In this document: positions 6,431 to 52,580 of the stretch, one piece after another | Layout: each line of letters starts with the position of its first letter | Numbering within the stretch: position 1 is the stretch's first letter | Source: a virus | Length of the DNA: 53,491 nt | Virus record (IMG/VR): IMGVR_UViG_3300048999_000117 | Location: 1 to 53,491 of that record | Reading direction: 5' to 3' (one strand) | The notes under the pieces: model-generated | What the model saw: the letters and a program-made list of their open reading frames with translations, nothing else | The model's database searches: none | Told to the model about the DNA's origin: nothing | Made by a program: the position numbers and the translations under genes

Positions 6431-9400
6431 GTGCGTCTCGACTTCACCCTCGTCGGCCGCGACCACCTTTCCCGCGTCCTGGACCGGGCAGGTGACGCCA
6501 GCAACCGGCTCGGCCGCCGCCTGCTGACCACCAGCATCAACGGCGACGCCGCGATGCGCCGCATGACCAACAACACGACCCGCTACCTCGCCGGGATGCA
6601 GCGGGACTCGGAGGCCGGCGGCAAGGCTCTTGAGGAGCTGAAGAAGGCCACGATGCTGCTGGCCCCGGCGGCGATCCCCGCCGCCGCCTCGCTCCTGCCG
6701 ATCGCGGCGGGCGCGGGCGCGGTGGCGGTGGCCTCCGGCGCCATGATCGCGGCGATGGTGCCGCAGATCGCCGCGCTCGGCGAGGCGGCCGACGCCGAGA
6801 AGAAGTACGAGACCGCCGTCACTCAGCACGGTGCCGCCTCCGCTCAGGCGTTCCAAGCGCAGATCGCCTACCAGCAGGCCGTGGCCAAGATGCCGCCGGC
6901 GACACGGGAGGCCGCCGCCTCTCTTGCGACGCTGAAGAAGGACTATCAGGGCTGGTCCGACAGTCTTGCCGGCGACACGATGCCCGTCTTCACCAAAGGT
7001 CTCGCGCTCGCCAACACGCTGCTGCCCAAGACGAGCGGCCTGGTCAAGGCGGCGAGCACGGAGGCCAGCCGGTTCGAGACGATCATCGGCGGCGAGATGG
7101 CCTCGCCAGGCCTCGACCGCCTGAACGGCAAGTTCACCAGCTTCGCCCAGAAGACGCTGCGCAGCGTCAACGACGAGATCGTCCACCTCCTCCGGGCCGG
7201 CCAGGGAACCAACGTCGGCGGTCCGGCACGCGAGTTCATGGACTGGGCGAAGGCTCAGGGCCCGACCGTCGCGGGCGTCCTCAAGAGCGTGGCCACAGCC
7301 CTGGTCCACCTGCTGCAGGCCGGAAGCGATGTCGGGGTCGGCCTGCTTCAGGCCGTCGAGGTGGTGTCGCGCCTGGTGTCGGCTGTGCCGCCCCAGGCCA
7401 TCGCCATCTTCCTGCAGCTGGCCCTGGCACTGAAGGTCACCAAGGCCGCCGCCCTGGGTCTCGTCGCCGCTCGCACGGCGGTGGCCGCGTTCGCCACTCA
7501 GGTCGTCGCGATGCAGACCGCCGCCGCCGGCGCACCGGGCCGCCTGCGTGCGGTGGGCGCAGCAATCGGTGCAATGTCCCGCAGTGCGAAGGTGGCGCTG
7601 GTCGGGACCGGAATCGGGCTGCTCATCCTCGCGCTGACGCAGCTGTCGTCGATGGGGAAGAAGGCGCCCCCGGACGTCGACAAGCTGACCACCTCGCTGG
7701 GCAAGCTCGCTCAGACCGGCAAGGTCACGGGCGAGGCGGCACGTGCGTTCGGCGCCAATCTCGGCGGACTTGCCGACTCGCTGCGGACCCTGAGCCGTCC
7801 GTCGAACCTGGACAAAACCCAGCAGTTCCTGACCTCCCTGGTCGGCATGGACTCGACGCCGGTCGCGGATGCCAAGAAGGATCTCGACGGCGTCGACCAG
7901 GCCCTCGCCGGGCTGGTGCAGGGCGGTAAGGCGGACCTGGCCAAGGCCGCCTTCGACAGGGTCGCGGCATCCATGCGCAAGCAGGGCATGTCCACCTCCG
8001 AGCTGCGGTCCCACCTCGGCGACTACACCTCTGCCCTCGACGACCAGGCCTTCGAGAGCCAGCTCGCGGCGCAGGCTCAGGGGCTGTTCGGACAGCAGGC
8101 GCAGAAGACGCAGGCCGCCCTCGCCGCGCAGAAGCAGAGCGCGGACGGACTGCGCCAGTCGATCCAGGCCCTCAACGACGTGAACCGCTCCGCACTGGGC
8201 GGCATGATCGGCTTCGAGGGTGCGATCGACGCGGCGGCCGATGCGGCGAAGAAGAACGCCGGCGCCTTGTCGATGACGCACGGCCAGCTGAACCTGAACT
8301 CGCAGAAGGCGCGCGATGCCGCGAGCGCGCTGTCCGACCTGGCGGCGAAGACCGACGAGGCTGCGGCGGCCGAGCGGGAGAACGGCTCGTCGTGGGAGCA
8401 GGTCAACGCGGTCTATACCCGCGGGCGTGCGGCGATCATCAAGAACGCCCAAGCCATGGGCCTGTCCAAGACCGAGGCGAAAGCCCTCGCGGACCAGATC
8501 CTCCGCATCCCGAACAAGACGTCCAAGGTCCAGATGGAGACCGAGGACGCGAAGCGTGATCTCACCGCGTTCAACGCAGCGGTGAAGCGCACGCCTGGCT
8601 CGAAGTCGGTGACGCTGACGACGCTCAGCAAGGCCGGCGAGCAGGTGCTGGAGTCGTTCGGGCTGAAGGTCAAGCGGCTGCCCAACGGCAGCGTGACGGT
8701 CAGCACGAAGGGCGGCGCGCTCTCCGCCATCGCCAACGTCGCGGCCGCGCTGCGCCGGTTGAACGGCAAGACGGCCACGACGTGGACGTACCACAACGTG
8801 CGGACGACCTACTCGACCGCAGGCAGCGTCTCGGGCGGCAAGAGCGTCCACGGCATGGTCGGCGCGACCGGCGGCCTGTACACGGGCGCCGGGTTCCGGC
8901 ACCGCGGGTACAGCGTCGGCGGCCTGGTCGACGGGCCCGGCACGGAGACGTCCGACTCGATCTTCGCGCCGTGGCTGAGCAAGAACGAGTTCGTCGTCAA
9001 CGCCCGCCGCACGCGCCAGTACCTGCCACTGCTGAAGGCCCTCAACTCCGGCAAGCTCGCGCTGGGTTCGCTGGGCGGGTCCGGCGGCGGTACGGCGTCA
9101 GCCGGCATGGAGGCCGGCCGCGGCCTGGCCGCAGGCATGACCGGGGCGGCCGGGCTCGTCGGCAGGGCGGCCCGGACGATGGCGTCCGCAGTCGAGGCCG
9201 GGATCAGGGACGAGCTGGAAATCCGGTCGCCGTCGAAGAAGACGAAAGCCTTGGCGGCGGACGTCGGCAAGGGCTTCATCGTCGGCTTGACCAGCACCCA
9301 AGCCAAGATCAAGTCCACGTCGAAGGACCTGGTCAAGGACATCAAGACGGCGTTCTCCGGTAAGAAGGAGTCCGGCCTGGTCGCGATGGTGGACCGGGAC

Positions 9401-30893: not shown

Positions 30894-31792
30894 CTACCGC
30901 CATGGCGCCGACTGGCGTCCTCCTCGGCACCTTCCAGCCCGGCACCCCCGAGTGGAAGGCAGCCCGGGCCGGGCTGTGCATCACCGCCACCGAGATCGCC
31001 GCCGTCCTCGGCCTCTCACCGTGGATGAGCCGCTTCACGCTGTGGCACAAGAAGGCCGGCCTGCCGCACGCCCCGTTCACCGCCACCCCCGAGATGGAGT
31101 GGGGCGTCCGCCTCGAACCCGCCGTCGCCCTCAAGTGGGCCGACGAACACCAGGACTTCGGCGTCGAGGAGACCGGCACGTGGCGGCATACCGAGCGTGA
31201 GTGGCAGCGCGCCACCCCCGACCGGCTCCTCACCCAGCGCGCCCGCACCACCGCCCTCCTCGAAGTGAAGACGTCCCCGGTGGGCGACGAGTGGGGACCG
31301 TCCGGCAGCGACGTGATCCCGGTGCACTACCGCACCCAGGTGCAGTGGCAGCTCGACGTCCTCGGCGTGCAGGTCTGCCACGTCGCGCTCCTCGTCGGCG
31401 GCTGCGACTACCGCGAGTACGTCGTCGAGTACGACGAGACCGACGCCAAGGTCATGCGCGGCGCCGCCGAACGCTTCCTCGACGACGTCCGGCAGGGCAA
31501 CCGGCCACCCATCGACGGCGCCAACGACACGTACCAGACGATCCGCCTCCAGCACGAAGGCCGCGAGGACGTCGAGGTCGAGATCTCCGCCGAGCACACC
31601 GCCGACTTCGAGATCGCACAGCAGCAGGCGAAGGCCGCCGACGCCGAACTCGTCCGCGCCCGCGGCCAGCTCCTCGACGTGATCGGCACCGGCCGGTGGG
31701 CCGTCCACAACGGGCGTCGCATCGCCACCCGCACCGTCAACCCGGACGGCACCACCCACGCTCTCCAGCCCGCCAGGAGCCACGCCGCATGA
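30890..31792 (+). CDS. YqaJ-type exonuclease
   Basis: A 300-residue protein starting at GTG 30890. It carries the YqaJ/lambda-exonuclease core: GTPEWKAARAGLCITATEIA, then MEWGVRLEPAVALKW, the Asp of ATPDRLL, the Glu-x-Lys of LLEVKTSPVG and YRTQVQWQLDVLG. It resects double-stranded ends to give 3' single strands for the partner RecT. The next gene overlaps as ATGA, so the pair is made together. Confidence 0.93.
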   Translation: MTTAMAPTGVLLGTFQPGTPEWKAARAGLCITATEIAAVLGLSPWMSRFTLWHKKAGLPHAPFTATPEMEWGVRLEPAVALKWADEHQDFGVEETGTWRHTEREWQRATPDRLLTQRARTTALLEVKTSPVGDEWGPSGSDVIPVHYRTQVQWQLDVLGVQVCHVALLVGGCDYREYVVEYDETDAKVMRGAAERFLDDVRQGNRPPIDGANDTYQTIRLQHEGREDVEVEISAEHTADFEIAQQQAKAADAELVRARGQLLDVIGTGRWAVHNGRRIATRTVNPDGTTHALQPARSHAA

Positions 31793-32610
31793 GCCAGATC
31801 AGCAACGCCATCGAGAAGCGCGACCAGGGTCCGGCCGCCGTCGTCGAGCAGTACCGCGGCGACCTCGAACTCGTGATGCCCAGCCACCTCACCAAGCGGG
31901 TCGGCGCCTGGATCCGCAACACCCAAGGCCTCCTGCGCCGCGACCCCAAGTTGATGGAGGCCGCGACCAACGACGTCGGCCAGTTCATCGCCGTCCTCAT
32001 GGACGCCGGACGCCTCGGCCTCGAACCCGGCACCGAGCAGTACTACCTCGTCCCGCGCTGGAACAAGAAGAAGCGGTGCACCGAAGTCACCGGTGTACGC
32101 GGCTACCAGGGCGAGATCGAGCTGATGTACCGGGCGGGCGCCGTGTCCTCCGTCATCGTCGAAGTCGTCCGCGCCAAGGACCAGTTCGCCTACCGGCCCG
32201 GCCGCGACGACCGCCCCGCCCACGACATCGACTGGGACCTCGACGACCGCGGCGACCTCCGCCTCGCCTACGCCTACGCCGTCATGAAGGACGGCGCCAC
32301 GAGCAAGGTCGTCGTCCTCAACAAGGGGCACATCGCCGGCGCCCGCGCCAAGTCCGACAGCGCCGGCAACGACTGGTCGCCGTGGACCACGGACGAAGAG
32401 GCGATGTGGCTGAAGACCGCCGCGCACCGCCTGTCCAAGTGGGTGCCGACCTCCGCCGAGTACATGCGCGAGCAGATCCGCGCCAAGGCCATCGTCGCCG
32501 CCGAGCAGCAGCCCGACCTACTGCCCGCGCGCATCCCCACCCCGGCGCCCGGCTCCGTCGACGAGGACTACGACGACGAGCCCGTCGACGCCGAGGTCGT
32601 CGAGGACTGA
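31789..32610 (+). CDS. recT: RecT single-strand annealing protein
   Basis: A 273-residue protein with the RecT pattern: QFIAVLMDAGRLGLEPGTEQ, the basic stretch LVPRWNKKKRCTEVTGVRGYQG and EIELMYRAGAVSSVIVEVV, and an acidic C-terminus (EDYDDEPVDAEVVED). It binds single strands and anneals them to homologous sequence, so the phage can recombine and repair broken ends. Together with the exonuclease it forms a Red-like system. Confidence 0.93.
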   Translation: MSQISNAIEKRDQGPAAVVEQYRGDLELVMPSHLTKRVGAWIRNTQGLLRRDPKLMEAATNDVGQFIAVLMDAGRLGLEPGTEQYYLVPRWNKKKRCTEVTGVRGYQGEIELMYRAGAVSSVIVEVVRAKDQFAYRPGRDDRPAHDIDWDLDDRGDLRLAYAYAVMKDGATSKVVVLNKGHIAGARAKSDSAGNDWSPWTTDEEAMWLKTAAHRLSKWVPTSAEYMREQIRAKAIVAAEQQPDLLPARIPTPAPGSVDEDYDDEPVDAEVVED

Positions 32611-35427: not shown

Positions 35428-36414
35428 ATGTCCTGGTTCAAGGTCGACGACACGGCCCACACCCACCCCAAGCTCCGGGGGGCGGGCACGGCCGCGATCG
35501 GCCTGTGGACCCTCGGCGGCTCCTACGCGGCCCAGTACCTCACCGACGGCACGGTGCACGCCCACTTCGTCAAGACGACAGCCACCGCCCCGCAGCTCGC
35601 GAAGCTCGTCAAGGCCGGCCTGTGGCACCCCGCCGGACACGGCTGCCCACGCTGCCCGCAGCCCGCCGACGGCGACTACGTCATCCACGACTACCTCATC
35701 TACAACCCGCGCCGAACCAAGGTCATCGCCGAGCGGGAACGGGCCGCCGAGAAGAAGCGGAAGCAGCGGTCCGGGGGCGCGGACGACATGGATCCGGATG
35801 TGAACCGGCGCGGAAACGAAGACGATTCGAGCTCGAATCGAGGCCGATTGCATGATGCATCCGAGGGTAAAACGAGCACGATTCGTGACGGAATCTCAGA
35901 CGCAAATCCTGGTCAGAGCGATGTGTCCCCGGTGGACTCCCTCGGGACTCGTGCGCGCGCGGTAACCCGACCCGACCCGTCTGTTCTTCCTACGGAAGAA
36001 CAGACGGAAGAGACAGCTAGCTACGCGAGCGAGACCGCACACATCGGCGACCGCCCCCGCATCCCCACCGCCAGCCAGCCCCTCGTCGAAGCCCTCACCG
36101 CCGGCGGACTCGTCGTCGGCTGGGACCTGAAGCCCGCCGAGTGGTTCCTCGTCGAGGCGCTCATCCGGCGGTGCGGCATCCCCGCCCTCGTCGTCTCCGC
36201 CCGCGGCAGCTGGGAAGGCGCACGCGCCCAGCCCCGCTCGGCCCGCTACTTCCTCCCCGCCTGGCGCGCCCTGCCCGACATCGCGACCGCCACCCTGCCC
36301 GCCGCTGTCGGCGACGTCGTCCCCCTCACCAAGCCGCGCGGCCAGCAGGAGACCGACGACCTGTTCGACCGCGCCATGACACGCGCCCGCTCCCGCACCC
36401 AGGAGTCCTCATGA
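35428..36414 (+). CDS. Replication initiator (DnaD/O-type)
   Basis: A 328-residue protein. Residues 1-105 (MSWFKVDDTAHTHPKLRG, AIGLWTLGGSYAAQYLTDG, APQLAKLVKAGLW) are a winged-helix domain known from phage replication organisers. Residues 110-215 are a low-complexity linker. Residues 215-328 form a helical domain (LVEALTAGGLVVGW, WFLVEALIRRCGI), a probable oligomerisation or loader-binding domain. It likely binds the phage origin and recruits the helicase with the next gene. The linker-coding DNA is unusually AT-rich and full of palindromes. Confidence 0.82.
   Translation: MSWFKVDDTAHTHPKLRGAGTAAIGLWTLGGSYAAQYLTDGTVHAHFVKTTATAPQLAKLVKAGLWHPAGHGCPRCPQPADGDYVIHDYLIYNPRRTKVIAERERAAEKKRKQRSGGADDMDPDVNRRGNEDDSSSNRGRLHDASEGKTSTIRDGISDANPGQSDVSPVDSLGTRARAVTRPDPSVLPTEEQTEETASYASETAHIGDRPRIPTASQPLVEALTAGGLVVGWDLKPAEWFLVEALIRRCGIPALVVSARGSWEGARAQPRSARYFLPAWRALPDIATATLPAAVGDVVPLTKPRGQQETDDLFDRAMTRARSRTQESS
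35822..36007. other. Palindrome cluster, candidate replication origin
   Basis: Inside the initiator gene, where the protein linker is coded, are CGATTCGAGCTCGAATCG (35823-35840, perfect), CACGATTCGTG (35877-35887), TGCATGATGCA near 35850, and CCGTCTGTTCTTCC paired with its complement around a TAC loop (35977-36007). The local base content is lower in GC than the flanking gene. This placement mirrors lambda ori within gene O. It is an inference from structure. Confidence 0.55.
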
Positions 36415-41812: not shown

Positions 41813-41881
41813 GTCATGACACCGTGAGGTTACCCATTGCGGTGTCATGACACCAGGGTCTAGGGTGGGTGTCATGACACC
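41813..41881. promoter_or_regulatory. Three RHH operator sites
   Basis: GTCATGAC at 41813-41820, GGTGTCATGACACC at 41841-41854 and the same 14-mer at 41868-41881. Centres are spaced 31 and 27 bases. All lie between the divergent repressor and the membrane/translocase operon, so they can control both. Confidence 0.8.
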
Positions 41882-41982: not shown

Positions 41983-42336
41983 GTGGCTGATCATTCCGCG
42001 CGCCCCGACGCGCCCGCAAGTTCCCCGACCATCGCCGAGCTGCTCCGCCTCTGCGCGGAGGACTACGCCAGCACCGCACACCTGCGCCACCCCAGCGAAC
42101 ACACGGCCCCGGAACGCCCCTGCCCCGCCACGTTCCCCACCGACCCGACGCCCTGCCGCGGCCCGATCGCCGTCACCGTCCTCGACACCGAGAACGCCGG
42201 CGCCGACGGCTGCGAGTACCACGCCGCCCGCCTCCTCGCCTCGCTCAACGGCGGACGCGTCCACGCCCGGCCGGACGCCCCCGACGGCGCCGCCCTCCGC
42301 GTCTTCAAGGCCGCCGCCGGCGGTGAGCGCCAGTGA
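41983..42336 (+). CDS. First gene of transfer-like operon
   Basis: A 117-residue protein starting at GTG 41983 with an AGGAGG site. It has a helical start (TIAELLRLCAEDYASTAHL), four Cys (CPATFPTDPTPC, GCEYHAARLL) and a hydrophobic middle (GPIAVTVLDTENAG). Small proteins of this sort precede membrane genes in Streptomyces mobile elements. Function unknown. Confidence 0.65.
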   Translation: MADHSARPDAPASSPTIAELLRLCAEDYASTAHLRHPSEHTAPERPCPATFPTDPTPCRGPIAVTVLDTENAGADGCEYHAARLLASLNGGRVHARPDAPDGAALRVFKAAAGGERQ

Positions 42337-43196
42337 GCCGCACCCGCCGCGTCCTGGCCAAGCTGACCGCACCCTTCCGCACCAAGGCCCCCGCCGTCGG
42401 CCGTCGCTCGGCCGCCCCGCTGTGGGTCCGCGGACTCACAGCCGGCGGACGCCCCATCGTCCTCGGAGTCGCCCTCCTCATGTGCGCACCCGGCGAGTAC
42501 CACCTCGCCGAGACCGCCGGATGGAACGACCCCTTCACCTACGGCATGCCGGTCGTCCTCTCCGCCTACGCGGGCATCGCCGCCGCCGTCGCCTCCACCC
42601 GCCGCCGAGGCGACCGGGGCCGCTGGTCCGCGATCATCGGCGCCTGCCTCGCCCTCGGCCTCGCCATGGCCGCCCAGGTCGTCAGCCACCTCATCACCAC
42701 CGGGCACGTCATCGCCGACCAGCCCATCCTGATCGCCGTCACCAGCCTCGTCCCGCCCGCCGTCGTCGGTCACCTCCTACACCTCGCGGCCAGCCCGCCG
42801 GACGCACACCAGGACGCACAGGACACCCAGGACGCGACCGCGTCCACCCCCGTCCCGAGCGTCCCGGCTATGCGGGACGTGGTCCCGCCCGATGCCCGGC
42901 TGCTGCCGCTCGTCGCCCGCCCGGTGCCAGTCGTAACCCTCGAACGCGAGGACCGACAGGACGACGACAGGACGCGCGAACTCCCGCCCGGGACGGGCCA
43001 GGACGCCGAGGACGGGCCGCCGCCCGAGCCGCCCCTCATGACGTCCGCCCAGGTCGCCGAGCGGTACGGCATCGCGATGTCCACCGTCCGCTCCTGGGTC
43101 GACACAGGACGCCTCACCGTCCACAGCAAGGACGGCCGGAACCGGAGCTTCTTCCACCCGGACGCCCTTCCCGAGCTGGAGGCGGTGCGCTCATGA
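42333..43196 (+). CDS. DUF2637/SpdB-like membrane protein with HTH
   Basis: A 287-residue protein. Residues 30-150 have four membrane segments (PIVLGVALLMCAPGEYHLA, VVLSAYAGIAAAVAS, SAIIGACLALGLAMAAQVV, ILIAVTSLVPPAVVGHLL), a layout shared with DUF2637/SpdB proteins of Streptomyces plasmids and integrative elements. A Pro/Asp-rich linker follows. Residues 235-285 form a winged-helix domain (LMTSAQVAERYGIAMSTVRSW, RNRSFFHPDALP). Spd proteins help a plasmid spread within the recipient mycelium. Fusion to an HTH suggests DNA binding at the membrane. Confidence 0.72.
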   Translation: MSRTRRVLAKLTAPFRTKAPAVGRRSAAPLWVRGLTAGGRPIVLGVALLMCAPGEYHLAETAGWNDPFTYGMPVVLSAYAGIAAAVASTRRRGDRGRWSAIIGACLALGLAMAAQVVSHLITTGHVIADQPILIAVTSLVPPAVVGHLLHLAASPPDAHQDAQDTQDATASTPVPSVPAMRDVVPPDARLLPLVARPVPVVTLEREDRQDDDRTRELPPGTGQDAEDGPPPEPPLMTSAQVAERYGIAMSTVRSWVDTGRLTVHSKDGRNRSFFHPDALPELEAVRS

Positions 43197-43369
43197 CCCG
43201 CCTCGCCTTCGGCGCCGTCCTCGGACTCCTCGTCGCCTGCCCGACTCTGCTCGCCGTCGTCCTGGCCGTCGTCGCTGCGGTCGTCTCGCAGCCCGCCGTC
43301 CTCGCCTTCGCGGCCGGCGTCCTGCTCTGGCCGCGCCTCGCTCGTCGCGTCCGGGGGTGGACCCGATGA
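43193..43369 (+). CDS. Small hydrophobic membrane protein
   Basis: A 58-residue protein coupled as ATGA. Two hydrophobic helices cover residues 3-30 and 32-46 (FGAVLGLLVACPTLLAVVLA, VLAFAAGVLLW), with a basic tail. Small double-pass proteins of this kind are typical of Streptomyces spread genes. Confidence 0.65.
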   Translation: MTRLAFGAVLGLLVACPTLLAVVLAVVAAVVSQPAVLAFAAGVLLWPRLARRVRGWTR

Positions 43370-43683
43370 GCGACGCCCTGCGAAAGGCGGAGGACGCCGT
43401 CCGGGACGCCACCGCCAACACCGACGTCGTCCGCATCGTCGCCGCCGTCCTCGCCACCCAGCAGGCCGCCCAGCAGCAGGCGCCCGCCCCGCCGTCCGCG
43501 CCGACGACAGACCGACGCCCTGTCGGCCTGTACATCGCCGGCGGCATCGGCGCCGCGGTCGCTCTCGCCTTCCTGGCCATGGCCGCCGCGGTCCTCGCGG
43601 TCGCGGTCGCCGTCGGCGCGATCTGCGCCACCGCCTGCGTGCTCGTGCTCCGCAGCATGTGGCGCGACTTCACCAATCGCTGA
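43366..43683 (+). CDS. Membrane protein with helical head
   Basis: A 105-residue protein starting at ATG 43366 (ATGA overlap). A helical head (ALRKAEDAVRDATANTDVVR), an Ala/Gln/Pro spacer, and two membrane segments (YIAGGIGAAVALAFLAMAAA, VAVGAICATACVLVL) make it another probable spread-type membrane protein. Confidence 0.65.
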   Translation: MSDALRKAEDAVRDATANTDVVRIVAAVLATQQAAQQQAPAPPSAPTTDRRPVGLYIAGGIGAAVALAFLAMAAAVLAVAVAVGAICATACVLVLRSMWRDFTNR

Positions 43684-44356: not shown

Positions 44357-46483
44357 ATGACAGTCGACCTGATCAAGGCGTCACCGGACGCACCCTCGGA
44401 CGCGCAGGACGCTCCGGCCCCTGAGGCGTCCTCGGACCGTCCCGAGGCGTCCCGTCCGCCGCGTCGCATCCGCATCGCCCACCTCCGCCGCGTCGTCGTC
44501 GACATCCGCCAGAACCCCGCCTACCGCCTGGCGGTCCGCCACGGCGCCTACACGTGGGGCGGCATGCGCATCCTGACCCGCCGCGCGTGGGAGGCCCGCA
44601 CCACCGCCACGCACCAGCGGATGATGCGCATCGCCGAGGCCGCGGGCAACGAGGAGATGGTGCAGAAGTGGGAACAGCGCGCCTACGCCTACCGGTTCGC
44701 CCGGCACAAGCGGCGCATGGACCTGCTCCAGCTCGCCATCAACCTGCCCAAGGCCGTGTTCACCACGGTCGTCGCCGGGGCGGGCGTGCTCCTGATGCTG
44801 GGCATCCTCATCGCCTGGCACAACCACGACGTCGCCGACGTCCTCGCGCCGCTCGACGCCGTCATTCAGCTGGTGGCGTGGCTGGGGTTCATCGCCTCCG
44901 TCATCTGGGACCCGCTCCTGTACTCGCTGCCCCTGCTCGCCATGGCCGGCGCCTGGGCCGTCGGCAAGAACCAGAAGGCGGCACCCACCTGGGCCCTGCC
45001 CGCCGACGATGCCGCGCTCGACGTCATCCCGGACGAGAACGCCATCCTGAGAGCCCTCGGCAACCTGGGCCTCTCACCCCTGAACAAGGCGATCAAGGAG
45101 GGCTGGAAGCCGCGCTGGGTACAGCCCACGGTCCGCCTCGGCAACGGGTACCACACACAGGTCCAACTGCCCCTCGGCGTCACCGTCGAGATGGTCAACG
45201 GCAAGAAGAACGTCCTCGCCCACAACCTGCTCCGCAAGCCCGTCGAGACCTGGCCGACCGAGCCGCCCAAGCAGCCCGGCGTCCTCGACCTGTGGGTAGC
45301 CGACCAGGGCTCCCTCAACGGACCCGTACCACCGTGGCCCCTGCTCACGGAGGGCACGACCGACTACTTCAAGGGCGTACCCGTCGCCCTGTCGCAGCGC
45401 GGCGAGCCGATCATCGGCAAGCTCATGGCCGCGAACTGGATCGTCGGCGGCATCATGGGCTCCGGCAAGACGTCCATCGTCGTCTCGCTGCTCCTCGGCG
45501 CGATCCTCGACCCGCTCGTCGAGGCCGAGGTGTACGTCATGGCGACGAACATCGACTACGACCCGCTCAAGCCGCGCCTGAAGGCCCTCGTCAAGGGCGA
45601 CGACCCCGAGCAGCTGAAGGCCGCCCTCGACCGGCTGCGCAGCCTCACCAACGAGGTCACCGAGCGCGGCAAGCTGCTGGAGGAACTCGGCGGCGAGTCG
45701 CCCAAGCTCACCCGTGAACTGGCCCTGAAAGACCCGCGCATGCGGCCCCGGGTCATCGTCTTCGACGAGGTCCACGAGCTGTTCATGAGCAAGGAGTACG
45801 GCAAAGAGGCCGCCGAGCTGGCCATCCGCGTCATGAAGAAGGCCCGCAAGGTCGGCATCACCCTCATCTGGGTCACCGTCTCCCCGACCGCCGACAGCAT
45901 CCCGCGCGACGTCACCCGCAACACCAGCCACCGCGTCGCGTTCGCAGTCGGCGACCAGGTCGCCAACGACGGCCTGCTCGGCTCCGGCAAGTACAAGGCC
46001 GGCATCCGCGCGACCGAACTCGTTCCCGGCCAGGACATCGGCACCGCGGTCACCTACGGCTTCACCAGCAAGCCCTTCGAGGTCATCCGCTCCTACTACG
46101 TCGCCCGCGACCCCGAGAAGGGCATCGACGAGGTCACGCCCGTCGTCGAGCGGGCCATGGGCCTCTACGAGGGCACCGGGCCCGTGGACACACCCACCTT
46201 CGACGTGGCCGACCCGCTCACGGACATCGCGGCCGTCCTCGGCCACGAGCCGCGGATGCGGACACAGGACGTGCTGCGCGGCCTCCAAGACCGCGCCCCG
46301 GTCGCCTACGGCAGCTGGTCGTTCCGCGACCTCAAGAGCGTCCTCGACGACGCCGGCCACGGCGTCTACAAGACGGACGGCGGCAAGATGCACGTCAGCC
46401 TCGACCGCATCCTCGACGCCATCGCCGCCCGCGACGAGGACACCCCGGACGACGAAGACGACGAGGGAGGCACCGAAGACTGA
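44357..46483 (+). CDS. TraB/FtsK-like DNA translocase
   Basis: A 708-residue protein. Residues 1-120 are charged; two or three membrane segments follow (about 125-155 and 165-205: AVFTTVVAGAGVLLMLGILI, LLYSLPLLAMAGAWAVG). The ATPase domain has a Walker A motif GGIMGSGKTS with Lys near residue 370, and a Walker B motif VIVFDEVHELFM near 470. The C-terminal 90 residues (MRTQDVLRGLQDRAPVAYGSW, DLKSVLDDAGHGVY) look like the winged-helix DNA-recognition domain of such proteins. This architecture is that of Streptomyces TraB, which moves double-stranded plasmid DNA between cells. The GGGAGGC repeats that follow could be its target. Confidence 0.82.
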   Translation: MTVDLIKASPDAPSDAQDAPAPEASSDRPEASRPPRRIRIAHLRRVVVDIRQNPAYRLAVRHGAYTWGGMRILTRRAWEARTTATHQRMMRIAEAAGNEEMVQKWEQRAYAYRFARHKRRMDLLQLAINLPKAVFTTVVAGAGVLLMLGILIAWHNHDVADVLAPLDAVIQLVAWLGFIASVIWDPLLYSLPLLAMAGAWAVGKNQKAAPTWALPADDAALDVIPDENAILRALGNLGLSPLNKAIKEGWKPRWVQPTVRLGNGYHTQVQLPLGVTVEMVNGKKNVLAHNLLRKPVETWPTEPPKQPGVLDLWVADQGSLNGPVPPWPLLTEGTTDYFKGVPVALSQRGEPIIGKLMAANWIVGGIMGSGKTSIVVSLLLGAILDPLVEAEVYVMATNIDYDPLKPRLKALVKGDDPEQLKAALDRLRSLTNEVTERGKLLEELGGESPKLTRELALKDPRMRPRVIVFDEVHELFMSKEYGKEAAELAIRVMKKARKVGITLIWVTVSPTADSIPRDVTRNTSHRVAFAVGDQVANDGLLGSGKYKAGIRATELVPGQDIGTAVTYGFTSKPFEVIRSYYVARDPEKGIDEVTPVVERAMGLYEGTGPVDTPTFDVADPLTDIAAVLGHEPRMRTQDVLRGLQDRAPVAYGSWSFRDLKSVLDDAGHGVYKTDGGKMHVSLDRILDAIAARDEDTPDDEDDEGGTED

Positions 46484-46626
46484 GGGAGTTCTCCCTACCC
46501 GCCTCCCTGCCCTGCATCCCCATGGTTGACCTGGGGAAACAGTGGTTTAGGGAGGCAGGGGAGGCAGACCCACGAGGACGAGGGAAACGGGAAACAGGGA
46601 CTTCAGCATCCCTCGCGCCGCCTCCC
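46465..46626. repeat. GGGAGGC repeat cluster after the translocase gene
   Basis: GGGAGGC or its complement occurs at 46465-46471, 46501-46507, 46550-46556, 46560-46566 and 46620-46626. AGGGAG and CTCCCT also form an inverted repeat at 46483-46496, and GGGAAAC occurs twice nearby. The 46484-46656 gap has no gene. A repeat cluster next to a TraB-like gene resembles clt loci (translocase binding sites) of Streptomyces plasmids. The role is inferred. Confidence 0.6.
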
Positions 46627-49515: not shown

Positions 49516-49782
49516 ATGGACGTTGCCGACAACATCGCCGCCGAGCTTGGCGCGGATCAGACGTCGCCCGGCATGGCGGCCGTCGCCCGTTCCCTCGCCA
49601 AGGCGATCGACGAATCGGACGCACCGACCGCGAAGGCCGTTGTCGCCGACAAGCTCCGGGCGATCATGGCGGACCTCCGCAGGCTCGCCCCGGTCGAAAT
49701 GAAGGGGGATGCCGTCGATGACATTGCTGAGCAGCGAGAGAAGCGCCGCGCCGCAGCCCGACAGCAGGCCTCCGACGGCTGA
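49516..49782 (+). CDS. Possible small terminase subunit
   Basis: An 88-residue helical protein starting at ATG 49516 (GTG 49510 is possible). It begins MDVADNIAAELGADQTSPGM and has a basic end (EQREKRRAAARQQ). Size, position before TerL and a 65-base overlap with it fit a small terminase subunit, which binds the packaging site. No clear HTH motif is visible, so this is tentative. Confidence 0.55.
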   Translation: MDVADNIAAELGADQTSPGMAAVARSLAKAIDESDAPTAKAVVADKLRAIMADLRRLAPVEMKGDAVDDIAEQREKRRAAARQQASDG

Positions 49783-51244
49783 CGGCCGCGTGTACGGCTG
49801 GCAGGAACCCCCGATCCAGATCACGCCCCCGGCCGTGTCCAGCGCGGGCCAGGAGGCGATCGACCTCGCCGCGAGTGCCGGGCTGCACCTGGACCCGTGG
49901 CAGCAGCACGTCCTGTGCGTCGGCATGGGTGAGAAGCCGGACGGTAGTTGGGCGTCGTTCGAGGTCGCGGTGAACGTGCCGCGCCAGAACGGCAAGGGCG
50001 GAGTGATCGAAGCCCGCGAGTTGTGGGGCCTGTTCATCGGCGGCGAGGAGCTGATCCTCCACAGCGCGCACGAGTTCAAGACGGCGAAGAACGCGTTCCG
50101 CCGGATCGAGCGCCTGATCCGTAGCACTCCTGACCTGCACAGACGCGTCAAGCGGTACTGGCAGACCACGGGTGAGGAGAGCATCGAGCTGTACTCCGGG
50201 CAGCTGCTGCGGTTCATCGCGAGGAGCAAGGGTTCCGGCCGTGGCTTCACCGGCTGGTGCAACATCATGGACGAGGACATGATCCTCGGCGACAACGAGA
50301 TGGACGCCCTGCTGCCCACCATGGCAGCGGTCCAGGATCCGCAGATCTGGTATCTCGGATCGGCGGGCATCGGCGGTCCGTCCGTACAACTGGGGCGCCT
50401 GCGCCGCCGTGCACTGGCTGCGATCGAGGCTGGCACGTCGGATCCGTCACTTACGTACTTCGAGTGGTCCGTGGACCCGCACGTGGATGAGTGCCCGAAG
50501 GACTGCACCGTGCACGACGATGCGGCCTCCAACGAGGCAGTACTGAAGTCCAACCCCGGCATCGGCTACCGGCTGACGCTGGAGAAAGTCGCCAATGAGC
50601 GGTCCACTCTCAGCAAGGACGGCTACGCCCGCGAGCGCCTCGGGGTCGGTGACTACCCGTCCGACACGGCGGAGACGTGGCAAGTCGTCGGCGAGGACGC
50701 GTGGCGGGCGCTGGCGGCTGCGGAGTCGTCGCCGTCGGACCCAGTGGCGTTCGCGATCGACATGACCCCGGAGCGCTCGCACGCGGCGATCGCCGTGGCG
50801 GGGGACTGGCGGGGCGGCACGCACGTCGAGGTGGTCGACCATCGGCCCGGTACGGGCTGGATCCTCGACCGGGCTGCCGAGCTGCATGAGAAGTGGAAGC
50901 CGCGGTGCTGGGTCGTCGATGCCGGTGGTCCTGCGGGATCGCTCATCGCCGACCTGGAAGAGCGCCTCGGCGTCGAGGTCGTCTCGCCGAAGACACGCGA
51001 AGTCGCCTCGGCCTGCGGCCAGTTCTACGACGCGGTGACCGAGCAGACCCTCAGCCACCTCGATCAGGCGCCCCTCGCGTCCGCGCTGGCGGGCGCACAG
51101 AAGCGCCCACTCGGCGATGCGTGGGCGTGGGCGCGGCGGATCGTCTCGGTGGACATCAGCCCGCTGGTCGCCGCCACGCTCGCCAAGTGGGGGCTCGGCG
51201 CCGAGGTCGAGGACACGGTCGATCCGCTGGACAACATCCTGTGA
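49718..51244 (+). CDS. terL: Terminase large subunit
   Basis: A 508-residue packaging motor and nuclease. ATG 49718 is preferred to ATG 49709, since AAGGGGG lies at better spacing. The ATPase domain has a Walker A-like VPRQNGKGG near residue 88 and a Walker B-like CNIMDEDMIL near 184. The nuclease domain begins near VAFAIDMTPERSHAAIAV, with Asp/Glu residues in an RNase H-like fold, then CWVVDAGGPAGSL. It cuts and packages concatemer DNA into the head. Confidence 0.94.
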   Translation: MTLLSSERSAAPQPDSRPPTADGRVYGWQEPPIQITPPAVSSAGQEAIDLAASAGLHLDPWQQHVLCVGMGEKPDGSWASFEVAVNVPRQNGKGGVIEARELWGLFIGGEELILHSAHEFKTAKNAFRRIERLIRSTPDLHRRVKRYWQTTGEESIELYSGQLLRFIARSKGSGRGFTGWCNIMDEDMILGDNEMDALLPTMAAVQDPQIWYLGSAGIGGPSVQLGRLRRRALAAIEAGTSDPSLTYFEWSVDPHVDECPKDCTVHDDAASNEAVLKSNPGIGYRLTLEKVANERSTLSKDGYARERLGVGDYPSDTAETWQVVGEDAWRALAAAESSPSDPVAFAIDMTPERSHAAIAVAGDWRGGTHVEVVDHRPGTGWILDRAAELHEKWKPRCWVVDAGGPAGSLIADLEERLGVEVVSPKTREVASACGQFYDAVTEQTLSHLDQAPLASALAGAQKRPLGDAWAWARRIVSVDISPLVAATLAKWGLGAEVEDTVDPLDNIL

Positions 51245-51255
51245 GGGAGGCTCCC

Positions 51256-51432
51256 ATGACCAGGGCAAACATGGTCGGCGCCCTGGCGTCAGCGTGCGGG
51301 TGGGTGGCCGCCCGCCTGCCCGGGGCGGCTGGGGCCGTGCTGCTGTCGGCCGCGGCCTGGCAGGTCTACACGCCCGCTGGGATGGCGGTCGCCGGGGCCT
51401 TCTGCCTGTCCGTGGACTGGAGGAAGCGGTGA
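51256..51432 (+). CDS. Small membrane protein between TerL and portal
   Basis: A 58-residue protein beginning MTRANMVGALASACGWVAAR, with hydrophobic residues 20-50 (LPGAAGAVLLSAAAWQVYT). It starts at ATG 51256 with GAGGGAGG and overlaps the portal gene as GTGA. Small proteins in this slot are seen in other actinophages; the role is unknown. Confidence 0.65.
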   Translation: MTRANMVGALASACGWVAARLPGAAGAVLLSAAAWQVYTPAGMAVAGAFCLSVDWRKR

Positions 51433-52580
51433 GCCTCTTCTTCGGACGGCGTGAGCGCCGGGGCCCGTTCCCCGAGCCGCCGATCCCACCGCCGCTTCGG
51501 TCGATGACGTTCGCGCGCGTCAGCCTCGCGCAGACCGAGGCGAGCCTGCAGAAGGTTGCCGTGTGGGCGGCCGTGGACCTGATTGCCTCTCTGGGATCGC
51601 TGCTGCCCATCGACGTCTTCGAGGGCACAGGGGCTGCTCGCCGTGAGCTGCCTACGCCGAAGATCCTGGAGGACCCGTCGGGCGAGGGCTACGGCACTGC
51701 GGACTGGATCTACCAATACCTGATGTCGCTGCTGCTGCGCGGCAACACCAACGGCCGAGTCGGCGACCGGGACCGGCTTGGCAATCCGACGCAGATCGTG
51801 CTGTACCACCCAGACGATGTGCAGGGTTGGCGCGACGATGAGTCGGGGCTGCCGAAGTGGCGGGTGTGCGGCCAGGATGTGCCGGCGGATGAGATGTGGC
51901 ACCAGAGGGCGTACACGATTCCCGGGCGGCTGCTGGGCTTGTCGCCCGTGCGCCACCACGCCACGACGATCGGCCTGGGTATCGCGGCCGAGCGGTTCGG
52001 CCGGCAGTGGTTCGAGGACGGCGCGCACCCCTCGGGGCTGCTGACGAACGAGCAGGCGCTGACTCCGGGCCAGGCCAAGACCGCGAAGGAACGGTTCATG
52101 GCCGCGCTGCGCGGCACACGGGAACCGGTGGTGCTGGGGCAGGGCTGGAAGTTCCAAGCGATCCAGGTCGCTCCGGAAGAGTCGCAGTTCCTGGAGACGC
52201 AGAAGTACACGGCTGCGGAGTGCGCGCGGATCTACGGGCCCGGTGTACCGGAGATCCTCGGCTACGAGACCGGCGGCTCGATGACCTACGCCAACGTCGA
52301 GCAGCGCAGCCTCGACCTGCTGACGTACTCGCTCGACCGGTGGCTGGTGCGTACCGAGCGCATGTTCACCGCGCTCCTGCCCGCCGGCCAGTACGTGAAG
52401 ATCAACCGTGGTGCTCTGGCCCGCACCGACCTGCTGACCAGGTTCAAGGCGCACGCCCTGTCCCTGCAGAACAGGTGGGCGGTACCCAACGAAGTACGCG
52501 ACCTGGAAGACCAGGCGCCGGTGCCCTGGGGCAACGATCCGCTCGTTGAGGCCGCGCCGAAGGTGCGGCTCAGTGAATGA
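51429..52580 (+). CDS. Portal protein
   Basis: A 383-residue protein starting at GTG 51429. It has the HK97-portal pattern: SLAQTEASLQKVAVWAAVDL near residue 35, LLLRGNTNGRV near 100, a wing region, AGRLLGLSPVRHH-type loop (PGRLLGLSPVRHHA) and MTYANVEQRSLDLLTYSL near the end. The dodecameric portal forms the DNA entry and exit channel. Confidence 0.92.
   Translation: MSLFFGRRERRGPFPEPPIPPPLRSMTFARVSLAQTEASLQKVAVWAAVDLIASLGSLLPIDVFEGTGAARRELPTPKILEDPSGEGYGTADWIYQYLMSLLLRGNTNGRVGDRDRLGNPTQIVLYHPDDVQGWRDDESGLPKWRVCGQDVPADEMWHQRAYTIPGRLLGLSPVRHHATTIGLGIAAERFGRQWFEDGAHPSGLLTNEQALTPGQAKTAKERFMAALRGTREPVVLGQGWKFQAIQVAPEESQFLETQKYTAAECARIYGPGVPEILGYETGGSMTYANVEQRSLDLLTYSLDRWLVRTERMFTALLPAGQYVKINRGALARTDLLTRFKAHALSLQNRWAVPNEVRDLEDQAPVPWGNDPLVEAAPKVRLSE

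Follow-up and report, generated by a model that had tools for sequence, protein, structure and literature searches.

What is the role of a dense cluster of short GGGAGGC repeats at the 3′ end of a translocase gene in a virus, and which protein could read it? The sequence analysed, here called the window, is the whole stretch of 53,491 bases of a virus record. The window is probably a Streptomyces phage. It carries genes for the terminase large subunit (49709-51244), the portal (51117-52580), RecT (31201-32610) and a phage-type replication initiator (35428-36414). Neither a Prim-Pol nor a RepPP homologue is encoded in the window; it is a phage without AICE-type Rep.

The earlier note had reported five copies of GGGAGGC in both orientations between 46465 and 46626, starting inside the end of the translocase gene. 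All five were found at the expected places, 46465 (+), 46501 (-), 46550 (+), 46559 (+) and 46620 (-), and the first of them (46465-46471) indeed lies within tra, which ends at 46483. Across the whole window, on the other hand, the word is not enriched. We counted 21 copies against 22.2 expected, a total reached by 61 of 100 shuffles, and genome-wide enrichment was rejected as this total is average. There is no strand bias either (12 copies on the plus and nine on the minus strand). Equal density elsewhere would have spoken against the proposal of the earlier note, but here the density is local while the genome total is average: five of the 21 copies fall within 46465-46626. In 1000 dinucleotide shuffles no 162-bp span held five copies, the maximum being four (reached twice), and when the local 301 bp were shuffled 5000 times, five copies never arose. 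Chance does not account for the local cluster.

The gene itself, tra (44357-46483, plus strand), encodes a 708-aa AICE/TraB-type DNA translocase of the FtsK family, as judged from profile matches, Walker motifs, hydropathy and the AlphaFold2 secondary structure of the C-terminus. The hit to PF01580 was weak (E 8e-5, 22.6 bits, just below the cut-off of 24), and phrog_1358 (FtsK/SpoIIIE-like) was hit with 2.2e-18. Tra has the Walker A (GIMGSGKT, residue 365) and Walker B (VIVFDE, residue 466) motifs expected of an FtsK/SpoIIIE motor. N-terminal membrane segments are also present, on hydropathy alone, as two hydrophobic stretches at residues ~139-147 and ~170-179. The part coding for the predicted C-terminal winged helix, which we propose as the reader of the repeats, spans 46217-46438 on the plus strand (residues ~620-694). 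In the AlphaFold2 model of the C-terminus the elements follow the order helix-strand-helix-helix-strand, as in a winged helix, with a core pLDDT of ~85, and the quality of the winged-helix model is middling (pLDDT 71, pTM 0.58). Foldseek gave no match to this model at E 0.001 or better, VIA-align placed an EF-hand domain first (Z 7.4) and also returned the repressor Rex (Z 6.4), and no FtsK-gamma or TraB structure was among the structure matches listed for it. The full-length AlphaFold2 model of Tra was set aside, its mean pLDDT being 48.8.

Two other features of the region upstream of tra were noticed. GTCATGA and GGTGTCA repeats crowd 41813-41881, with five to six copies in ~65 bp, and form a second strong repeat cluster in the window. 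The genes at 42323-43683 have relatives near tra in many of the compared loci too, which suggests that they belong with tra to a larger travelling module.

Conservation of the array at the end of tra

The nearest relatives of the translocase were found in one other viral contig (L002, 78 % identity) and in Streptomyces chromosomes (66-80 %), and the relatives borne by plasmids show only ~24-35 % identity. Searching Tra by tblastn against 50,697 phage records gave no match, so no phage of that collection is comparable at Tra. In 145 of 295 Streptomyces genomes, with three candidates scored per genome, Tra was matched at E 1e-30 or better. To 80 of the places listed we added the window, L002, the NBC_00859 plasmid (L015) and pCM32 (L014), which gave 84 tra loci. 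Excluded from the 80 were a number of rows interrupted by in-frame stops, one second copy and almost every place below ~279 bits. The Tra proteins of pSAM2, SLP1 and pJV1 were included neither in the tree nor in the profile.

An array of such repeats overlaps or follows the 3′ end of tra in 83 of the 84 loci, down to ~31 % Tra identity. Within 390 bp spanning the tra stop, 81 of the 84 loci contain at least four GGGAGG words; among 1426 control windows taken in these loci, three do. For two of the three exceptions to this count (L113 and L119) the array lies within a tra frame that lacks the usual stop; in both, the frame is open through the array into the next gene. The single tra locus without the array is pCM32. 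In place of GGGAGGC, its interval between tra and prim-pol (7653-7852) contains GTTAG/CTAAC repeats, which may be a different recognition word. A nucleotide profile built from 82 tra loci found a single plus-strand array in each of 83 loci out of the 84; weak opposite-strand matches of 19-29 bits to the same palindrome in 39 loci were not counted. In the window the core of the array matches at 46473-46568 (plus strand) with 72.3 bits, although this match is given by construction, since the window belongs to the set from which the profile was built.

The earlier note had overlooked two degenerate GCATCCC sites at 46514-46520 and 46606-46612, where relatives have sites, and a palindrome, GGGAGTTCTCCC, which occupies 46484-46495 and adjoins the stop codon of tra. 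The array of the window thus has five exact and two degenerate sites, and their spacing is fixed in relatives. In 80 of the 84 loci the palindrome occurs as GGGAGnnCTCCC close to the stop of tra, and the positions of the sites can be counted from it. Site 1 (46465-46471, +) lies at -19, as in 15 of 17 close-clade loci, and site 2 (46501-46507, -) at +17, as in 16 of 17 close and 62 of 65 distant loci, one mismatch being allowed in both cases. Site 3 (46514-46520, -), degenerate in the window, falls at +30, where 12 of the 17 close and 52 of the 65 distant loci have a site. Behind it comes a conserved centre element (46527-46534), TGACCTGG in the window and TGACCTGC or TGATCAGC in most relatives. 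Site 4 (46550-46556, +) stands at +66 (12/17 close, 48/65 distant) and site 5 (46559-46565, +) at +75, a position shared by 12 of 17 close loci, with 47 of 65 distant loci having it at +74. Site 6 (46606-46612, -), the other degenerate one, is at +122, and the close-clade sites lie there in six loci and at +123 in seven of the 17. Site 7 (46620-46626, -) is the last copy of the cluster.

The positions +17(-), +30(-) and +66(+) from GGGAGnnCTCCC are the most frequent ones in the close clade and likewise among the loci whose Tra is only ~33 % identical, the site after +66 being at +75 or +74. The window retains this seven-site layout, degenerate at 46514 and 46606. The cluster is part of a conserved seven-site array with several fixed spacings, and such a fixed-phase layout across proteins so diverged would not be expected of a loose GC-rich spacer. 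We found no description of this array in the literature, with subscription papers and supplements outside the search, and in one paper on Streptomyces and conjugation GGGAGGC stands only inside an unrelated border sequence. The exact 18-mer GGGAGGCAGGGGAGGCAG was also looked for in viral contigs. It occurs in seven loci, none of which has an array by profile or a tra homologue, and for this reason these loci were treated as chance.

The position of the array, in the gap before the next gene both in AICEs and in the phage, could also suit an operator or another regulatory site for an element-encoded or host regulator of the KorSA/GntR type, and by eye GntR-like genes are common in the array-bearing elements without tra. 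The sequence of the array remains constant while the sequence downstream differs between elements, however, and no promoter-like or terminator-like match was found in it. A KorSA-type operator was rejected, as the footprinted KorSA homologue SCO3932 has, in the part of the source that was accessible, a different motif, AC[TC]T[AG]TT.. (PMC8584621). Altogether we regard a regulatory site as very improbable.

Two flavours of the array word and the Tra winged helix

The array word is 8 bp long, (A/G)GGGAGGC, and comes in two flavours, AGGGAGGC and GGGGAGGC. Among the Tra columns tested by mutual information, those most informative on flavour were 675, 681, 668 and 684 in the numbering of the window, and all four belong to the C-terminal domain. 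This test used 66 A and nine G rows, after dropping six ambiguous rows, including the window, and three further ones; the dropped rows were restored in the later residue table, and the tree omitted pCM32 only. Each of the eight G-flavour rows from the distant clade has His675, a residue that no A row shows. The AlphaFold2 model puts the covarying residues 668, 671, 675, 681 and 684 within the wing or next to it.

Placed on the Tra-body tree, flavour requires nine changes, about as many as labels assigned by shuffling (9.6). In independent pairs the count for His675 agreeing with flavour is 5:0 (p 0.06, with two ties); for His675 or Arg/Lys671 it is 7:0 (p 0.016), the latter trait having been chosen after seeing the data. 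Flavour appears to follow residues of the C-terminal winged helix and not the phylogeny of the Tra body.

Comparisons of closely related genes point the same way. In each of the ten G rows, the winged helix has a lower identity to its closest A counterpart than the matched A-A control. In the pair L093/L080, for example, nucleotide identity drops from 91 % in late tra to 66 % across the winged helix, is 74 % over the array and recovers to 88 % downstream. Controls of equal flavour lack this drop in winged helix and array. Eight G/A pairs with controls were available, a subset of the ten, as L015 and L065 have no close neighbour and were omitted. The downstream flank is conserved (0.75-0.88) in three of the eight pairs and diverged in the other five, which add nothing on co-exchange. 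The winged helix and the array thus seem to have been exchanged together in near-identical tra genes. The two are adjacent, so recombination could move both without any functional bond between them.

The flavours also bear on the idea that the array acts as a folded strand, i.e. an RNA or a single-stranded DNA hairpin such as a single-strand origin. A hairpin is possible from the folding energy of the array (z -2.33), and only two of 200 shuffles fold as well. Against this stands the unequal spacing of the inverted pairs, 13 bp in one and 8-9 bp in the other, and therefore no continuous stem can form. Moreover, the flavour switches at sites outside the stem too, and Rfam contained nothing near the gathering score for the array. 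This is the explanation to which we give the least credit.

Phages, prophages and elements without tra

Late phage genes were recognised downstream of tra and the array in some of the relatives. In L210, L213 and L218 these are terminase and portal genes like those of the window, in L214 a terminase with further late-gene homologues, and in L219 a portal with further late-gene homologues as well as a PF03354 terminase 2 kb downstream of tra. For L206 and L208 the only match was to the longest late gene (a tape measure by its size) of the window or of the second contig, and L205 matched only other late genes. The test for late-gene homologues gave nothing in the other nine of the 17 downstream regions. 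L210, L213, L218 and L219 are diverged prophages in which tra and the array stand shortly upstream of the terminase, a genome position that is conserved for no obvious reason. The second viral contig is 78 % identical to the window in Tra and only 27-47 % in the other protein matches, and these sequence identities suggest that the tra-array cassette travels among phages and elements of other kinds.

Given this place just upstream of the terminase, the array of the phages might be a packaging (cos/pac) site. The terminase gene lies ~3 kb downstream in the window and ~1.7-2.6 kb downstream of tra in L210, L213, L218 and L219. Yet the same array with the same spacing occurs in the plasmid L015 and in AICE-like elements without a listed terminase, and in some phage pairs TerL is only 30 % identical while the array is unchanged. 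A packaging function is in our opinion even less credible than the regulatory one.

The array is not exclusive to tra. Scanning the 295 genomes with the pattern gave 82 merged places, of which 52 are at a listed tra, 18 are array-like without one (17 loci) and 12 are chance-like. Merging and reading were done by hand; the script's own split was 52/19/11, and three places were moved between groups. Of the 17 loci, L175 retains a tra remnant and L171 resembles one by eye. In the other 15, no tra homologue was found in the 9-10 kb around the array and a further 20 kb upstream. About nine of these loci look by eye like elements with the order xis-array-integrase, for which one integrase and one xis were checked. 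Two without a tra homologue carry a phage major head protein, assigned by PHROGs in L167 (2394-3716) and probable by eye in L176 (2512-3963; both in array orientation), and are possible phage satellites. Tandem arrays, G flavour first and then A, were found upstream of the integrase in L170, L172, L181 and L183. Such double-flavour arrays are thus present in four of the 15 tra-less loci and in none of the 84 tra loci, a difference to which no clean probability can be attached because the elements are related. Docking sites for both types of pump without a pump are what hitchhikers would need.

These loci matter also for the view that the array is a replication origin, with iterons read by an AICE-type Rep (Prim-Pol plus RepPP). 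A RepPP-type gene lies ~1-3 kb downstream in many of the elements with the array, RepPP homologues are present in roughly half of the loci without tra, and Prim-Pol is encoded downstream within 2 kb of tra in G009, G293, G211 and G198. Iteron origins of similar look do exist, as in pWTY27 according to the part of PMC3583192 that was available. But the cognate Rep expected of an iteron origin is missing from the window, which has its own phage replication initiator, and those four are the only ones among 15 close-clade chromosomal loci with Prim-Pol within 2 kb downstream of tra. RepPP homologues with 57-60 % identity in L187-L193 have no array in ~12 kb, and L170 has no RepPP homologue despite both flavours. 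With no Prim-Pol or RepPP in the window, few Prim-Pol neighbours and RepPP relatives without the array, the array follows Tra and not Rep. Flavour follows Tra as well, and two flavours per element would remain unexplained by one Rep. We consider an origin improbable, if less so than the other alternatives.

A putative transfer locus and its relation to known systems

The earlier note had proposed a recognition site of the translocase, a clt, and this proposal gained support. We hold it very probable that the phage's own AICE/TraB-type translocase has its cis-acting transfer locus (clt) in the array at 46465-46626, with binding and the requirement in cis being inferred. This reading is the best supported one because the array stays with tra (83 of 84 loci), its flavour covaries with the C-terminal domain of Tra and pWTY27 offers an analogue. 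Most likely Tra itself reads the array; covariation and co-exchange back this, and there are no binding data. Sequence shows that the array exists, has a fixed architecture, is linked to tra, and both covaries and is exchanged together with the winged helix; Tra binding, hexamer loading and DNA transfer are inferred.

As a mechanism, we propose that the 8-bp word is read in two parts, the invariant GGGAGGC core by the conserved part of the Tra winged helix and the base in front of it by the wing. Reading of the core by a conserved recognition helix and of the first base by the wing fits the predicted domain, and the split is an inference from the model. Two inverted pairs around a fixed centre, together with the outlying sites, may seat Tra on double-stranded DNA in an ordered complex, and the assembled pump would then move unnicked phage DNA through septa or hyphal tips. 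What the phage would gain is the least certain point; the simplest idea is a virion-free spread of its genome, from one hyphal compartment to another or between mating hyphae.

If so, a large group of AICE-type Tra proteins would have a concrete candidate for their clt, and the question of how such pumps select the DNA to be moved would have an answer open to testing. The array comes with a hypothesis of specificity at the level of residues (671, 675 and 681 versus the first base of the word), with natural swap pairs in which specificity can be tested, and with candidate hitchhikers that have two types of clt. It also locates a conjugation pump in phages and prophages, together with the site where the pump docks, and in this way a phage genome might pass through hyphal walls with no need of a particle. 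More speculatively, and with somewhat less than an even chance in our view, the array could be a shared currency of transfer in Streptomyces: one array type across AICEs, phages and satellites, whose two flavours correspond to two specificity groups of translocases. Phages would move their genomes between hyphae without virions by means of their own tra-clt cassette, and tra-less integrative elements with one clt per flavour would be carried by either group of AICE or phage translocases.

Short G-rich words, KOPS and SRS, guide pumps of the FtsK/SpoIIIE family, and KOPS are spread and polarised along the chromosome. GGGAGGC in the window is unlike them, being neither enriched nor strand-biased, and does not form a genome-wide polarised system. 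The known AICE Tra families resemble the present one in having a single Tra with an FtsK/SpoIIIE domain and, in many relatives, Prim-Pol and RepPP as neighbours; the available portion of that survey (PMC3218068) contains no description of this array. Phages and tra-less elements are outside its scope because, in the same portion, elements without int, rep and tra together were excluded. According to the accessible text of PMC9513070, no clt was described for pSAM2 and hijacking is an open question, which makes the present array useful. The plasmid-phage pZL12 is likewise a phage-like element with conjugal transfer genes, and the combination of phage and transfer therefore has a precedent, but pZL12 differs in needing a major tra and two adjacent genes (both as cited in the part of PMC3583192 at hand).

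A clt beside tra is already known from pWTY27 (PMC3583192) and pSVH1 (as cited), as far as the accessible texts go, and the extension to phage spread and hitchhiking is bold but untested. In pSVH1, TraB is a hexameric FtsK-like pump whose C-terminal winged helix reads the 8-bp words of clt/TRS (Vogelmann 2011, via the available parts of PMC3583192 and PMC4170104). The same indirect sources assign specificity to helix alpha3, whereas the covarying residues found here lie in and around the wing. Plasmid and Tra are also different, and the array described here has a fixed inverted layout. The clt of pWTY27 comprises the last 16 bp of traA and 159 adjacent bp, as footprinted by TraA, and its 688-aa FtsK-like Tra binds two clt regions, whereas in the window binding is inferred from covariation only. 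Loss of clt lowered the transfer of pWTY27 about 1000-fold. The repeat words of pWTY27 differ (TGACACC and CCCGCCC), and it has no phage virion context. Nevertheless, on the available part of the same source (PMC3583192), both loci overlap the end of tra, extend ~160 bp beyond it and are built from 7-bp repeats in direct and inverted order.
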